Shown piece after piece: positions 13,365 to 17,759 of a stretch of DNA of 44,139 nucleotides. The notes below the pieces were generated by a model. That model did not search any database and was not told the origin of the DNA. It saw nothing but the letters and a program-made list of their open reading frames with translations. The DNA lies in the NCBI GenBank assembly GCA_017623605.1, contig JAGAOR010000043.1, positions 1 through 44,139 on the forward strand. The letters are read 5' to 3'. The translations under genes were made by a program, and so were the position numbers. How positions within the stretch are numbered: the first letter of the stretch is position 1; every line of letters starts with the position of its first letter. The DNA comes from Clostridia bacterium (lineage in GTDB: Bacteria > Bacillota > Clostridia > Christensenellales > Borkfalkiaceae).

Positions 13365-14309
13365 ATGGAACATTTTATAGAAATTTTAAAACACGCCGCA
13401 GTTGATACGCTCCCGCTTTTGCCGTGGATCTTGTTGATGTACGTTCTGATCGAGCTTTTGGAAAGTAAAACGGATCTTAAAACGGCGAACCGCTTTGGCG
13501 GGAAATACGGTCCTGTGGTGGGCGCGGCGACGGGGTTAATTCCGCAATGCGGCTTTTCCGTTATGGCGGCAAAATTATTCGAGCAAAAATATATCACGCT
13601 CGGCACGCTTCTTGCGATCTTTTTTTCCACGAGCGACGAAGCGTTTATCATTCTGCTCTCCTCGGGTGAGGGCGCGGTTTGGGTATTGCCGACGCTTGCT
13701 TTAAAAATTGTGTTCGGTGTGATAATCGGCTACGCCGTAGACGGCGCGTTGAAATGGCTTGGCAGGGGGCAGGTATGCGTTGAAATGCCTGAAATGCAAA
13801 ACGGCTCACCTAAGAGCGTGCACGAGATTTTTATAAAAAATTATTTAGACGATAAAGACGTTGACGTCGTTTGTTCTTGCGGCAAAGATCACGCGGATAG
13901 CGCGCCTTGGAGAAAATATCTGCTCAATCCTTTGTTGCACGCGTTAAAGGTGGCGGCGTTCATATTCCTCGTGAATTTCGTGCTAACGGCAATCGTGCAC
14001 GGGGTAGGGGAAGAAAATTTCGTGGCGTTTATGCACCGCAACCGTTTCGTGCAACCGTTTATCGCTTGCGCGATCGGGCTCATTCCCAACTGCGCTTCGA
14101 GCGTGGTGATCACGGAAGCGTTTTTAGGCGGCGGGATCGCGTTCGGCTCGTTCGTGGCGGGACTTTGCGCAAATGCTGGTATGGGCTTTGTCGTACTGTT
14201 CCGAAACGTACGCAAATGGAAACGGAATTTGTGGCTCTTCGGCTTTTGTTATCTCGTTTCCGTATTGATCGGGCTTTTGCTCAATATCGCGCCGCTTTCG
14301 CTTGTTTAA
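13365..14309 (+). CDS. ArsP_2-type putative metal permease, 314 aa
   Basis: This polytopic membrane protein looks like the family annotated as putative manganese transporter or ten-TM heavy-metal exporter (ArsP_2, PF11449). Two similar halves each carry a GLIPQCGF/GLIPNCAS motif: TGLIPQCGFSVMAAKLF (about 56-72) and CAIGLIPNCASSVVITEAF (about 236-254), typical of an inverted repeat around a transport site. A cytoplasmic loop holds a Cys/His cluster (CSCGKDH, about 169-175) that could bind metal. The substrate is not certain. It is probably transcribed with tsaD. Its stop codon lies inside the SigB-like promoter of the next operon. Confidence 0.8.
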   Translation: MEHFIEILKHAAVDTLPLLPWILLMYVLIELLESKTDLKTANRFGGKYGPVVGAATGLIPQCGFSVMAAKLFEQKYITLGTLLAIFFSTSDEAFIILLSSGEGAVWVLPTLALKIVFGVIIGYAVDGALKWLGRGQVCVEMPEMQNGSPKSVHEIFIKNYLDDKDVDVVCSCGKDHADSAPWRKYLLNPLLHALKVAAFIFLVNFVLTAIVHGVGEENFVAFMHRNRFVQPFIACAIGLIPNCASSVVITEAFLGGGIAFGSFVAGLCANAGMGFVVLFRNVRKWKRNLWLFGFCYLVSVLIGLLLNIAPLSLV

Positions 14310-14329
14310 AGCGGGATGGAAAGTGGTAT
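14304..14329 (+). promoter_or_regulatory. SigB/SigF-like promoter of the sigma operon
   Basis: GTTTAA (14304-14309), 14 bp, TGGTAT (14324-14329). The SigB consensus is GTTTAA, 12-15 bp, GGGTAT, so 11 of 12 bases agree. It lies 25 bp before the start of a STAS gene whose operon encodes a SigB/SigF-family sigma factor, and it overlaps the stop codon of the upstream permease. No good housekeeping promoter is seen at this point. Autoregulation is inferred. Confidence 0.6.
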
Positions 14330-14354
14330 ATATAAATATAAGGAGAAAACGGCA

Positions 14355-14663
14355 ATGGAAGAAGTAAAAATCGAGGGGCTCGTAGACGGGCGTTTAAAAA
14401 TCAACCTTTCGGGGGATATCGACCTTGGTAATGCCGAAGCGTTTTATCAAGTGGTGTCCGAAGCGTATAAAACCAACCCTGCAAGTATCACGTTCGATTG
14501 TAAGGAGCTGGATTTTATTGATAGCACCACGCTCGGCACGTTCGTAAAAATCCTCAAAATTTTAAAATCGGACGGCTTTGATATGAGGCTCGTAGGCTTA
14601 CAACCGAAAATCAAGAAATTGTTTTTGATTTGCTCGCTTGATTCAATTATTTCGATCGAATAA
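14355..14663 (+). CDS. STAS-domain anti-sigma factor antagonist (SpoIIAA/RsbV-like), 102 aa
   Basis: This small cytosolic protein is of the anti-anti-sigma class. In known systems the unphosphorylated form binds the HATPase anti-sigma factor and frees the sigma factor. The motif DFIDSTTLGTF places the phosphorylatable serine at Ser57, and the N-terminal LSGDIDLGNAEAF strand-helix is typical. I start at ATG 14355 with AGGAGA eight bases upstream, not at an earlier in-frame codon. It is the first gene of the operon behind the SigB-like promoter. It could equally be called RsbV- or SpoIIAA-like; sequence alone does not separate them. Confidence 0.88.
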   Translation: MEEVKIEGLVDGRLKINLSGDIDLGNAEAFYQVVSEAYKTNPASITFDCKELDFIDSTTLGTFVKILKILKSDGFDMRLVGLQPKIKKLFLICSLDSIISIE

Positions 14664-14799
14664 AACACGTATATGCGTCGCAATACGCCGTTGCTCTACG
14701 TTTTCCTTGCTCGTTTACGTAATGTAAACATCCCTTCGGAAAGCCTCGCGCGCCTTGTCTTGCTCGCATCTCCGCGTTTTATGAGTTTTGGAGAAGATT
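14664..14799 (+). other. 136-nt intra-operon spacer with hairpin and repeat-like sequence
   Basis: This is an unusually long gap inside an otherwise tight operon. It contains the small hairpin GTTTAC-GTAAT-GTAAAC (about 14714-14730) and a C/T-rich stretch (TTGCTC, CTTGCTCG, CTTGTCTTGCTCGC) resembling short dispersed repeats I recall from other genomes; I cannot verify that here. No T-run makes it a clear terminator. It might lower expression of the downstream genes relative to the STAS gene. Confidence 0.4.
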
Positions 14800-15156
14800 A
14801 TGGAAAAATTTTTAGTAGACCTCCCGCTTACGGGAGAATATCTCACGACGGTTCGTTTAACGACGGGCGGACTTTGCGCGCTCGTCGGCTTCGACGTAGA
14901 CGCGGCGGAGGATTATAAGGTCTGCGTAACGGAAAGCTTGTTGATCTTAAAGCGAAACGGTTATACGCGCGCTTCGATCGCCTTTGAAGTAGGTGAGGCG
15001 CTTGCCTGCAACGTATGCGGCGCGGAAAAGTCGGGGAAGCAAGAGGACTCCATTGAAGACGAAATCTCGCGCGCGCTTCTTGCCGCGCTCGTGGGCGAGG
15101 TGGAATTTATAAAAGATAGCGACGGCGCGGTAAAATCCATCGCTTTTGCAGGTTGA
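14800..15156 (+). CDS. Degenerate RsbW/SpoIIAB-like protein, 118 aa
   Basis: The first 55 residues follow the HATPase_c_2 anti-sigma pattern (LPLTGEYLTTVRLTTGGLCALVGF, then VDAAEDYKVCVTESLLIL), as in RsbW, where this region leads into the N-box E-x3-N-x3-H. Here Glu45 is present, but the Asn and His positions are replaced (ESLLILKRN). The G1 (DxGxG) and G2 (GxGL) ATP-binding boxes are missing from the shortened C-terminal half. It therefore should not phosphorylate anything. It may be a scaffold, a decoy that binds the sigma or STAS protein, or a decaying copy. The ATG at 14800 has GGAGA six bases upstream. It stops 23 nt before the sigma gene start. Confidence 0.65.
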   Translation: MEKFLVDLPLTGEYLTTVRLTTGGLCALVGFDVDAAEDYKVCVTESLLILKRNGYTRASIAFEVGEALACNVCGAEKSGKQEDSIEDEISRALLAALVGEVEFIKDSDGAVKSIAFAG

Positions 15157-15179
15157 TAGGGCATAGGGCGGAAGAGAAA

Positions 15180-15902
15180 ATGAACGAGCTGTTCGAGCGA
15201 TACAAAGAGACGGGCGATATTCGTATTCGAAACGAGATCGCCGAGAAATATCTCTACATAGCCGACATTCTCGCGAAAAAATTCGTGGGGCGGGGCGTGG
15301 AATACGACGATTTGAAACAAGTGGCGTCGTATGCGCTTTTGCGTGGGATCGACCGTTTTGATCCGTCGCTGGGTATGCAATTCACGACCTTTATCACCCC
15401 CACGATCACGGGCGAGATTAAAAATTATTTCCGCGATAAATCACGGCTCGTAAAATTGCCTCGTCGGCTTGGTGAGATCAGCGTGTCAGTGCGCAATTTT
15501 TCTAGCGAATACGAAGCGAAAAACGGTATCAAACCGAGCGTGAGGCAGATCGCCGAAACGCTTTCCCTTTCCGAGGAAGACGTGGTAAAGGCACTTGAAG
15601 TAGGCGGCACGGTATCGCTTGACGGAATGTCAAGCGACGCGGAAACCGAGAATGATAAATCGCTATATTCTCTGCTTGCAAGCGGCGAGGACGCTTACGA
15701 AAAATTTGAGATCAAGGAAGCGTTGCTTGCGGCAATGCGCGATTTTAGCGACACGGAAAAGGCGTTAATCGAATACCGTTTCGTTCGTGCGCTTTCGCAA
15801 AGTGAAACGGCAAAAAAGTTAGGCGTTTCGCAAATGTTCGTGTCCCGAATGGAGCGGAGATTGTTGCTTCGGCTTAAAGAACGCTTACAAGATAGCGTTT
15901 GA
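15180..15902 (+). CDS. RNA polymerase sigma factor of the SigB/SigF/SigG family, 240 aa
   Basis: This is a group 3 alternative sigma factor. Region 2 covers about 17-88, including the DLKQVASYALLRGIDRFDPS core-binding segment and the FTTFITPTITGEIKNYFRD -10-recognition helix. Region 3 is at about 100-165, and region 4 at about 185-235 has the helix-turn-helix SQSETAKKLGVSQMFVSRME. The order STAS, HATPase-like, sigma recalls spoIIAA-spoIIAB-sigF, but a second HATPase gene follows. The start ATG 15180 has GGAAGAG upstream. It might control stress response or a developmental programme; no sporulation genes are visible here, so I do not call it SigF. Confidence 0.88.
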   Translation: MNELFERYKETGDIRIRNEIAEKYLYIADILAKKFVGRGVEYDDLKQVASYALLRGIDRFDPSLGMQFTTFITPTITGEIKNYFRDKSRLVKLPRRLGEISVSVRNFSSEYEAKNGIKPSVRQIAETLSLSEEDVVKALEVGGTVSLDGMSSDAETENDKSLYSLLASGEDAYEKFEIKEALLAAMRDFSDTEKALIEYRFVRALSQSETAKKLGVSQMFVSRMERRLLLRLKERLQDSV

Positions 15903-15913
15903 GGGAGGACGGT

Positions 15914-16273
15914 ATGTTTTTTCAAATCAACGATTACGCTTCCCTGCGCGAAGCGATAGAAGACGTAAGCCGATTTTTAAACGAAAAGGACGTACCCTCC
16001 GAGCGGGTATTCGACGCGCGGCTTGTAGTAAACGAATTGATAGGGAACGTTTTTAGGCACGCAAAGTCAACGGCACGGCTTGGCGTAGAGCTCAACGGTG
16101 GATTTTTAGAGCTGCACGTGTTATCTGAAATTCCTTTTATCCCACCCACGATCAGTAAAAGAGCGGAAGTGTTTGCGGAAAACGGTAGAGGACTCTTTCT
16201 TGTAGATAGCGTAAGTGAGGAACGAAGCCTTACCGAGGAGGGGGGAATCCTCGTCCGAATAAAAATTAAATAA
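15914..16273 (+). CDS. HATPase_c_2 anti-sigma factor (RsbW/SpoIIAB-like), 119 aa
   Basis: This is the likely anti-sigma kinase of the operon. The N-box is intact (NELIGNVFRHA: Glu41, Asn45, His49), and a glycine-rich G2 box follows (ENGRGLFLVDSV, 89-100). The G1 aspartate of the usual D-x-G-x-G is not evident: the equivalent stretch reads HVLSEIPFIPP. It might bind ATP weakly or not hydrolyse it normally. A strong GAGGGAGG site precedes ATG 15914, and the start lies 11 nt after the sigma stop. Which of the two HATPase-like proteins holds the sigma factor is open; this one is the better candidate. Confidence 0.82.
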   Translation: MFFQINDYASLREAIEDVSRFLNEKDVPSERVFDARLVVNELIGNVFRHAKSTARLGVELNGGFLELHVLSEIPFIPPTISKRAEVFAENGRGLFLVDSVSEERSLTEEGGILVRIKIK

Positions 16274-16300
16274 TTTTCCAAAGCATAAAAAAGCATAAAA

Positions 16301-16330
16301 AAAGAACCGACTTGCAAAAGTCGGTTCTTT
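16301..16330. terminator. Bidirectional terminator closing the sigma operon
   Basis: The 13-bp stem AAAGAACCGACTT (16301-16313) pairs with AAGTCGGTTCTTT (16318-16330) around a four-base loop. It serves the plus-strand sigma operon and the minus-strand membrane protein gene. Confidence 0.9.
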
Positions 16331-16346
16331 AATCGTTCAAGAGAAG

Positions 16347-17759
16347 TTATGCGTTGCGGATTGCGAATTGATAAATTTTCGCAAGAAGCCCGTCGGGAAT
16401 ACGATCTCTGTATTGACCGAGATAGATGAACAGCTTGCGGAAGAATTCCTTGTTGTCGCCACCCACTTGATAATCAGGGATTTCGGGCATAACGCCTTTA
16501 TATTTCAAAATGAACAGTTCGGTGAATTGATTTCTCTCTTCGCCGTTCAAGATTGCGATAAACGGATCGAAGCTCTTGGAATTGTAGAAATCGTAGCCTG
16601 CGGTGTTCACCTGAACGGGTTCGATGGGATTTTCTTCGAAGGTGGGGTTAACTTCCTGCGCAATCTCTACGCCCTCAACAGGACCACCCTCGTAGGGAAG
16701 CGCTTCCGCGTATTCTTCCACCGTATATTCGGGCACAGGTTCGGGAGCAGGTTGTTCTACGGGTGCAACCTCTTCTTCCACCTTGTTTGCTTTCTTGCCG
16801 CTCTTGCCTTGCAAAATGCAGAACACAATTTGTACCAAGGATACTGCCGCCGCAACGATTGCATAGATCAAAAGCATATTGTCTTCCGCTTTTGCCGTGA
16901 ACGCCACGTAGCAAAGTACGCCGCCAACGACGAGTTGTACGATATAACGGATCATATCAAGCGCAAGGCCTTTTTTGGTAAGGAGGCGAATTGCGCCGAG
17001 CAATGCAACTACCCAAATCACCGCCGCCACGATCTGCACCGTAAGGTCGATCGTCAAGCCAAAGCCTTCTACTGCCGTGGTGATTTCTGCCGTATAGCCG
17101 TTGAACGCCATAACGGTTGCCGCCACGAACACGAGCGTGAAGAGAAGCTGAATAAGGCTTGCAAACGCTTTTTTACCTTTCTTTGCAAAACCAAGTACGA
17201 GATACAGGAGCGCGCCTACTGCCGCGATTGCCACGGTGATAAGATCAAGCTCGGTTGCCGTACCCTTAATAGCAGGGAGCGCGTAACCGCAAACCGCGTA
17301 TGTACCGAAGCCCGTTGCAAAGAAGAACGCAGCCGTGCGGAAGAGACAAGCCTTGCCGCTGATAAGCGCGATCAAACCGAATACGACGGTGAGTGCGATT
17401 GCCGCAAGGAGGGCGTAGAATACGACACCCGCAAGCAAACCAGCCACGTTTGCCGCGTCGGTGTAAACGGGAAGCATACCGAAAAGTTTAGAAGCTTCGT
17501 TGCCGCCGAAAAGATCGGTGATGGAAGCGAAAAGCGTTGCGCTTTCAGGCGCGAAGCCTTTCAAAACTTGAACGGGCAAGAAAAGTGCAGCCACGCTCAC
17601 GGCGATCAAAAGCAGAGAGAAGATGCGGCAAGCCGCTTTTTTCTGCTTGGGTGCAGGCGCTTCCGTTTGAGGCGCTTCCACCGTTTCGGGGAGCGTTTCG
17701 GGTACGTCGGTGCAAGGCACAACGTCGAACTCGATAGAATTTGTGTTGGTGTTGCTCAT
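16347..17759 (-). CDS. Multispanning membrane protein of unknown function, 470 aa
   Basis: I do not recognise a characterised family. A cytoplasm-like N-terminal 40 residues rich in Glu, Pro and Thr is followed by about eight hydrophobic segments (roughly 43-320), then a Glu/Pro-rich linker (about 328-385). A compact soluble C-terminal domain of about 85 residues (YDFYNSKSFDPFIAILNGEE onward, ending AKIYQFAIRNA) looks conserved and could be an interaction module; from memory, similar tails occur in uncultured Clostridia. The start has AGGAG at good spacing and a consensus TTGACA-17-TATAAT promoter, so it is probably well expressed as a single gene. Confidence 0.75.
   Translation of the reverse strand: MSNTNTNSIEFDVVPCTDVPETLPETVEAPQTEAPAPKQKKAACRIFSLLLIAVSVAALFLPVQVLKGFAPESATLFASITDLFGGNEASKLFGMLPVYTDAANVAGLLAGVVFYALLAAIALTVVFGLIALISGKACLFRTAAFFFATGFGTYAVCGYALPAIKGTATELDLITVAIAAVGALLYLVLGFAKKGKKAFASLIQLLFTLVFVAATVMAFNGYTAEITTAVEGFGLTIDLTVQIVAAVIWVVALLGAIRLLTKKGLALDMIRYIVQLVVGGVLCYVAFTAKAEDNMLLIYAIVAAAVSLVQIVFCILQGKSGKKANKVEEEVAPVEQPAPEPVPEYTVEEYAEALPYEGGPVEGVEIAQEVNPTFEENPIEPVQVNTAGYDFYNSKSFDPFIAILNGEERNQFTELFILKYKGVMPEIPDYQVGGDNKEFFRKLFIYLGQYRDRIPDGLLAKIYQFAIRNA

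Follow-up and report, generated by a model that had tools for sequence, protein, structure and literature searches.

How is an alternative sigma factor held and released if the RsbW-like protein encoded before it has lost the ATP site of an anti-sigma kinase, and a second protein of the same fold is encoded behind it? This question is raised by a four-gene operon on contig JAGAOR010000043.1 (positions 1 to 44,139) of a Clostridia bacterium of the family Borkfalkiaceae (assembly GCA_017623605.1). The whole of this stretch, 44,139 nucleotides (nt) long, is called the window below; it is contig C18 of a genome of 1.36 Mb that is 81% complete. The operon encodes a STAS-domain protein, an RsbW-fold protein (X), a SigB-type sigma factor and a second HATPase-fold protein (HAT). 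It is probable, in our view, that the operon is an autoregulated partner switch that divides the jobs of RsbW between two proteins, X being a non-kinase anti-sigma factor and HAT an atypical STAS kinase, and that its sigma factor replaced HrcA and the controlling inverted repeat of chaperone expression (CIRCE) at grpE-dnaK. Gene order, folds, lost and kept residues and promoter footprints were computed here, as was the outcome of the searches for HrcA and CIRCE, which were not found.

A conserved four-gene operon behind a SigB-type promoter

Analysis of open reading frames (ORFs) and hidden Markov models confirmed four genes on the same (+) strand at 14355-16273 of the window, in the order that a first-pass annotation of this DNA had given.

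14304..14332, + strand: putative SigB-type operon promoter (GTTTAA, 14-nt spacer, TGGTAT, then ATA)
14355..14663, + strand: STAS anti-anti-sigma protein, RsbV/SpoIIAA-like (PF01740, E 4e-17; TIGR00377 over cut-off; Thr58 at the phosphorylation position)
14800..15156, + strand: X, putative anti-sigma protein of RsbW fold that lacks the N-box Asn, G1 and G2 (AlphaFold2, Foldseek and profile matches)
15180..15902, + strand: sigma factor of the SigB/SigF/SigG family (TIGR02980, E 3.5e-58, below the curated cut-off; start at ATG 15180 or TTG 15153)
15914..16273, + strand: HAT, second HATPase-fold protein (PF13581, E 7e-10; AlphaFold2; Foldseek; intact N-box and G2, with [FY]-x-P-P in place of G1)

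The order STAS, X, sigma, HAT is kept in 54 of the 56 loci of the genus, and the remaining two are truncated by contig ends. Among eight order-level relatives, five carry all four genes, one locus is cut by the contig start and two (L062, L069) have X and sigma only. A scan of named genomes, mostly gut metagenome bins, returned 213 relatives of X; 80 were retained, and 74 of these stand in the same order by automatic calling, a count that partly repeats the 54 of 56, as the named loci overlap the genus loci on many contigs.

The STAS protein has what defines RsbV and SpoIIAA, namely a STAS domain with a threonine at the phosphorylation site, and this Thr58 is invariant in all 78 rows from the genus and its near relatives. 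For the sigma factor, TIGR02980 is the best family match, even though its 197 bits fall short of the curated cut-off of 234. Sigma regions 2, 3 and 4 are all recognized over cut-off (PF04542, PF04545 and PF04539, the last by 0.1 bit), and the start is uncertain between the ATG and the in-frame TTG upstream of it. An orthologue is present in 56 of 57 genus genomes including the window's own, and in 55 of the 56 others at 56-84% identity; the genome without one is 67% complete. The possibility that the locus is a misread spoIIA operon was rejected, as a separate spoIIAA-spoIIAB-sigF operon lies elsewhere in the same genome (G000:C13).

The promoter element GTTTAA-14-TGGTAT was located exactly at 14304-14329, where the first-pass annotation had seen a SigB-type promoter belonging to the operon. 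A strict form of the motif, GTTTRA-N10..16-GKTAYA, occurs in 36 of 54 genus upstream regions with a spacing that is always 15 or 16 nt, and a looser form in 48 of 54, so that the GTTT-spacer-GGTAT arrangement of autoregulated SigB-type operons stands before the first gene in most of the genus. The strict motif has 38 occurrences in 558,044 bases (loci plus window, both strands). In shuffled upstream regions it was found at a mean of 0.1 per 54 and a maximum of 1, a control that covers the strict form and not the loose one. At the position of the last T of TATAAT, which the search did not fix, 97% of the 36 operon promoters have A. A chance match overlapping the upstream stop codon was rejected as an explanation, given the footprint in 36 to 48 of 54 regions. 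Because the footprint is conserved across the genus, the operon is very probably transcribed by its own sigma factor, like sigB of B. subtilis, whose operon is sigma-B-controlled according to the relevant passage of PMC5207722. The C. difficile SigB consensus, quoted as WGWTT-N13-17-(G/T)GGTWA in a passage of PMC7494833, is related.

Two RsbW-fold proteins with different remains of the ATP site

X alone has no match in Pfam, and the RsbW models of NCBIfam match it only over residues 5-48 (E 4e-6, far below cut-offs). A profile of 63 homologues, searched against solved structures, matched B. subtilis RsbW (6m36, E 2e-15) and the anti-sigma-F RsbW chains 8jzt and 8ih8 (E 6e-9). The AlphaFold2 model of X, with a mean predicted local distance difference test (pLDDT) score of 93.8, was matched by Foldseek in the PDB to RsbW (6m37, E 2e-8, template modelling score 0.78) and to chain 8jzt of a sigF/anti-sigma complex (E 1e-6). 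By model and structure search, X thus has the HATPase fold of the RsbW/SpoIIAB family.

When X is aligned to SpoIIAB of the same genome, the G1 and G2 boxes are gone. The N-box Asn is found in 0 of 88 aligned homologues and the N-box Glu in 88 of 88, and X does not have the N, G1 and G2 set of a kinase-type anti-sigma factor. According to a passage in PMC10345196, Arg20 of SpoIIAB contacts sigma, Asn50 is a Mg ligand and Glu46 the catalytic base; X retains the Arg20 equivalent in 87 of 87 covering rows and the Glu46 equivalent in 88 of 88. The first-pass annotation, which was right about the missing ATP boxes and the RsbW-like fold at 14800-15156, had taken X for a decayed copy. Its mean pairwise identity within the genus is 65%, against 45% for HAT, the lowest of the four proteins, the others lying at 64-70%. 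Since X is under strong constraint and as conserved as STAS, it is not a decaying copy and is a conserved RsbW-fold protein without an ATP site that kept the likely sigma-contact residue. Its being a pseudogene or a non-HATPase was likewise rejected, as X is found in all genus loci except those truncated ahead of it, and its model matches RsbW.

HAT matches PF13581 over the cut-off, and its AlphaFold2 model (mean pLDDT 89.1) has the SpoIIAB/RsbW fold, with SpoIIAB (1tid, E 4e-6) matched by Foldseek. Glu41 and Asn45 of the N-box and the Gly-Arg-Gly of G2 are invariant in all 81 genus and near-relative rows. The G1 Asp stands at the aligned column in 0 of these 81 rows, compared to 5 of 6 from order-level relatives. 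In 9 of the 81, six out of 56 from the genus and three out of 25 from near relatives, an Asp is found in the next column. The site is occupied by a largely conserved [FY]-x-P-P, in which position 75 is F or Y in 51 of the 56 rows from the genus and in 22 of the 25 from near relatives, and Pro78 is found in 53 of 56 and 25 of 25, respectively. HAT accordingly has the N-box and G2 of an RsbW2-type STAS kinase and not its G1 box. The first-pass annotation had noted the intact N-box and no clear G1 Asp but called HAT the better of the two copies, a view that does not hold for a clade in which G1 is gone. Of the four proteins HAT varies most, and the invariance of its N-box and G2 therefore points to a retained function rather than decay.

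Correlations between distance matrices bear weakly on the pairing of the proteins. Over all rows, X correlates most strongly with sigma (0.81, compared to 0.61 for HAT), and within the genus STAS leads (0.67; X 0.54, HAT 0.51). They point to X-sigma in the one case and to STAS-sigma in the other, and do not settle the binding partners.

Loss of HrcA and CIRCE and the predicted regulon

HrcA was found in 0 of the 57 genus genomes, among them 12 with a completeness of 90% or more. Among family and order relatives outside the genus it is present in 42 of 44; the exceptions are G059, an operon carrier, and G066, a genome that is 51% complete. CIRCE was found in 30 of 30 examined HrcA loci outside the genus (30 of the 42 were fetched). 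A search for CIRCE with up to 5 mismatches found none in 20 dnaK/grpE loci, 28 grpE loci and 30 groES upstream regions of the genus.

A genome scan for SigB-type sites, which the first-pass annotation had suggested as a check, yielded 213 sites of the pattern GTTTRAN{15,16}GKTAYAWA in the 57 genus genomes, compared to 44 for the reversed pattern. The genes 3' of 98 inspected sites included dnaK (19), grpE (15), a SufC-like ATPase (14), STAS (9), a membrane protein of 431-439 amino acids (aa) (5), a CobW-type GTPase (3) and a pair. As this list covers 98 of 213 sites and the loci were partly picked for recurrent sites, its proportions are biased; the grpE tests are less so. A long ORF surrounds nine of the 98 sites, and one of those listed before a gene seen once is in fact a STAS promoter with a misassigned ORF (L152). 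In NCBIfam, ClpX and thioredoxin among the site-preceded genes scored over cut-off, and the SufC-like protein and the ClpB and Lon fragments below.

At grpE, a site was found upstream in 26 of 28 parsed genus loci by script, and in 27 of 28 after one start codon was corrected (30 loci were fetched of 53 genomes with a match). Thirty further grpE loci came from 24 X-bearing genomes beyond the genus sample, from four genomes of the same family and from two order relatives; in the 24 genomes, reached via named loci, hrcA was judged from about 1.5 kb beside grpE. Eight of these loci have hrcA and CIRCE, and 22 have no hrcA beside grpE. A sigma-type site within a fixed 300 nt before grpE is present in all 22 loci without hrcA, but in none of the eight with it (Fisher p 2e-7, uncorrected for kinship); the reversed pattern gave 0 of 30. 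Three same-family genomes without this sigma factor (G057, G058, G060) kept hrcA and CIRCE and have no site at grpE; only weaker sigma matches were found in them, and that of G060 adjoins spoIIAA-spoIIAB. The window's own genome has a strict site before the SufC-like gene, and its dnaK and grpE sites fit a relaxed pattern only.

What a heat-shock sigma factor in place of HrcA would leave behind, namely no HrcA, no CIRCE and a sigma-type site at grpE and dnaK, is thus found here, with relaxed sites in the window's own genome. In the genus and most near relatives examined, the sigma factor appears, from these genomic patterns, to have taken over grpE-dnaK from the lost HrcA/CIRCE repressor.

The membrane protein of about 431-439 aa begins with MAQQKKG; in five genomes (L107, L137, L149, L177, L180) a sigma-type site lies 58-85 nt ahead of its start codon. 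The one member scanned had no NCBIfam match at E 1e-10.

A proposed mechanism and its alternatives

In the mechanism that we consider probable, X would bind and hold the sigma factor, neither binding ATP nor phosphorylating. Unphosphorylated STAS would bind X and thereby free sigma. HAT, as an atypical kinase, would phosphorylate Thr58 of STAS and switch the system off, and a PP2C phosphatase encoded elsewhere would reverse this and act as the activator. Freed sigma would then transcribe its own operon and a proteostasis regulon comprising grpE, dnaK, the SufC-like gene and others. The binding of sigma by X, the kinase activity of HAT, the phosphatase and the reading of these promoters by the sigma factor are what we infer. 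We count in favour of X as the anti-sigma factor that two order relatives retained the X-sigma pair alone.

The genome has two PP2C-type genes, the first within a frame of 778 aa and the second encoding 362 aa. The 362-aa protein, of SpoIIE/RsbU type (L079 2351-3439, G000:C20), is a candidate STAS phosphatase and has no NCBIfam match at E 1e-10.

Several observations weigh against this mechanism or limit its reach. ATP binding by HAT is doubtful because the G1 Asp is lost in 81 of 81 rows, its kinase role is one that we infer, and SpoIIAB of the spoIIA operon or another kinase could act on STAS. SigF, also present in this genome, belongs to the same sigma family and has a related promoter preference. 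Of the 98 inspected sites, 27 precede genes seen once, which include clpX, clpB, lon and thioredoxin but also genes without a stress link, and four precede no clear gene. The relaxed pattern shows no enrichment over its reversed control in the window's own genome (9 compared to 7), so the case for the dnaK and grpE sites there rests on the relatives. Upstream of groES, found in only 36 of 57 genus genomes, a sigma-A-type TTTG[AG]-N17..19-TATAAT is present in 30 of 30 regions (L188-L217); therefore, not all chaperones moved. HrcA is kept in eight order relatives with X and sigma and in the nearer operon-bearing genomes G103, G107 and G111, so the operon alone does not imply loss of HrcA; the pattern suggests that the operon came first and the chaperone takeover later. 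The sigma tree shows no single clean loss of HrcA, with unsettled bootstrap support and a very long outgroup branch.

The roles of the two HATPase-fold proteins could be distributed differently. Neither may be a kinase, in which case STAS would be served by SpoIIAB or another kinase, or would work without phosphorylation, and HAT would sense a ligand or misfolding; the lost G1 Asp with its [FY]-x-P-P replacement and the intact SpoIIAB of the genome speak for this. We hold it to be unlikely, in view of the N-box Glu and Asn and the G2 box that persist in 81 of 81 rows of the least conserved protein, and of the STAS Thr that persists in 78 of 78. It is still less probable that HAT holds sigma and X acts antagonistically, by pairing with HAT or by binding STAS, like RsbW3 in M. 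smegmatis. HAT did retain its N-box and G2, but it is X that adjoins sigma where two genes remain, that is better conserved (65% compared to 45%) and that carries the Arg20-type residue, the aligned HAT column being mostly L, I, V or M; the distance correlation with sigma over all rows also favours X, though STAS leads within the genus.

On the side of the regulon, the sites at grpE, dnaK and suf might be ordinary sigma-A or SigF promoters, the operon's sigma having a different and narrow regulon. The -35/-10 spacing does resemble that of a sigma-A promoter, SigF is at hand as a family member, and chance would account for about one fifth of the sites found across the genomes (44 reversed compared to 213). 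We nevertheless consider this distinctly improbable, given that the A at the last T of TATAAT in 97% of the 36 operon promoters is set against TATAAT in 30 of 30 groES upstream regions, that the three same-family genomes without this sigma keep hrcA and CIRCE and have no grpE site, and that the same motif precedes the sigma operon itself. That HrcA gave way to CtsR and not to a sigma factor, with control of the kind that a passage in PMC6305308 reports for Oenococcus oeni, is highly improbable: pairs resembling CtsR boxes (at most 2 mismatches) were found at 1 of 20 dnaK, 1 of 30 grpE, 0 of 30 groES and 0 of 3 clp/lon loci, and the reversed pattern gave 2 matches in the same loci. CtsR boxes were rejected as the basis of chaperone control, being not above this control, in a search that addressed the boxes and not the ctsR gene itself.

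Taken together, what the first-pass annotation observed is confirmed and its interpretation is partly supported. A bolder reading, which we put forward only tentatively and doubt more than we believe, is that HrcA and CIRCE were replaced in these gut Clostridia by a SigB-type heat-shock sigma factor with two RsbW-fold proteins that lack a complete ATP site between them. One would be a dedicated anti-sigma factor; the other would be a phosphotransferase or sensor whose adenine-binding G1 became the conserved [FY]-x-P-P, possibly for another nucleotide or ligand. The takeover proposed above, if real, would be a clear case of a bacterial lineage in which chaperone control passed from HrcA, a repressor, to a sigma factor under partner switching; as there are relatives still in the older state, the steps of the swap could be read from genomes. 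The operon would also add a compact arrangement in which separate anti-sigma and kinase proteins are encoded together, and a HATPase family that keeps the phosphate and Mg side of the site and loses the adenine side. No report of a four-gene or pseudokinase version, or of HrcA replaced by a (partner-switched) sigma factor, turned up in searches of the open-licence literature.

Further features of the locus

Two more features lie within or at the end of the operon.

14664..14790, + strand: dispersed repeat of 127 nt between STAS and X, with similar copies elsewhere in fetched relatives
16296..16332, + strand: terminator-like inverted repeat followed by a T run (seen by eye in the sequence, without a tool score), with a convergent gene beyond

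The upstream neighbour of the operon is an arsenic-efflux-type gene (NF037962). Copies of the repeat elsewhere in fetched relatives are about 71-82% identical where most of the length is covered, and in G005 one also lies between STAS and X; in most relatives the gap between these genes is 0-40 nt. The predicted fold of the repeat is no better than that of shuffled sequences (z -1.1), and for 14200-16400 the best Rfam matches are far below gathering scores. The repeat is probably outside the switch proper.

In one relative, two copies of the operon (L010 and L070, G006:C98) lie in opposite orientation on one contig with equal sigma scores, which may be an assembly artefact. In the order-level relatives L064-L068, a gene that resembles HlyD-type adaptors by eye stands directly 3' of HAT, which suggests a different output there.

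Comparison with known systems

The spoIIAA-spoIIAB-sigF operon of the same genome shares the order STAS-HATPase-sigma and the sigma family with the operon described here. In contrast, its SpoIIAB has the N-box, G1 and G2, and the ORF list contains no HAT-like gene 3' of sigF.

In B. subtilis, the second HATPase, RsbT, is encoded upstream and acts on the stressosome, and dnaK is under HrcA/CIRCE, unlike what is proposed for the operon here. The rsbV-rsbW-sigB genes resemble it in having STAS, RsbW fold and sigma in this order in a sigma-controlled operon, as described in a passage of PMC5207722. They differ in that RsbW is anti-sigma factor and kinase in one.

O. oeni has neither hrcA nor CIRCE, and another regulator, CtsR, controls dnaK and groEL, as stated in the part of PMC6305308 concerned with it. 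There a repressor is in charge, whereas an activating sigma factor is proposed here.

A close parallel in the division of labour is the SigF system of M. smegmatis, which likewise combines a non-kinase RsbW-type anti-sigma factor with a separate RsbW homologue as STAS kinase. According to the pertinent passages of PMC7693655, RsbW1 binds SigF but is not active as a kinase, and RsbW2 phosphorylates RsfB but does not bind SigF. The claim of the first-pass annotation that known systems have a single anti-sigma kinase was therefore too strong. The anti-SigF chains 8jzt and 8ih8 match X in both sequence profile and fold. In M. smegmatis, however, the genes are at separate loci and RsbW2 is reported there with N, G1 and G2, whereas here they form one operon and HAT has no G1; in addition, the predicted regulon here includes grpE-dnaK. 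With the split of anti-sigma factor and kinase already known in M. smegmatis, the operon described here would be a variant of that design.

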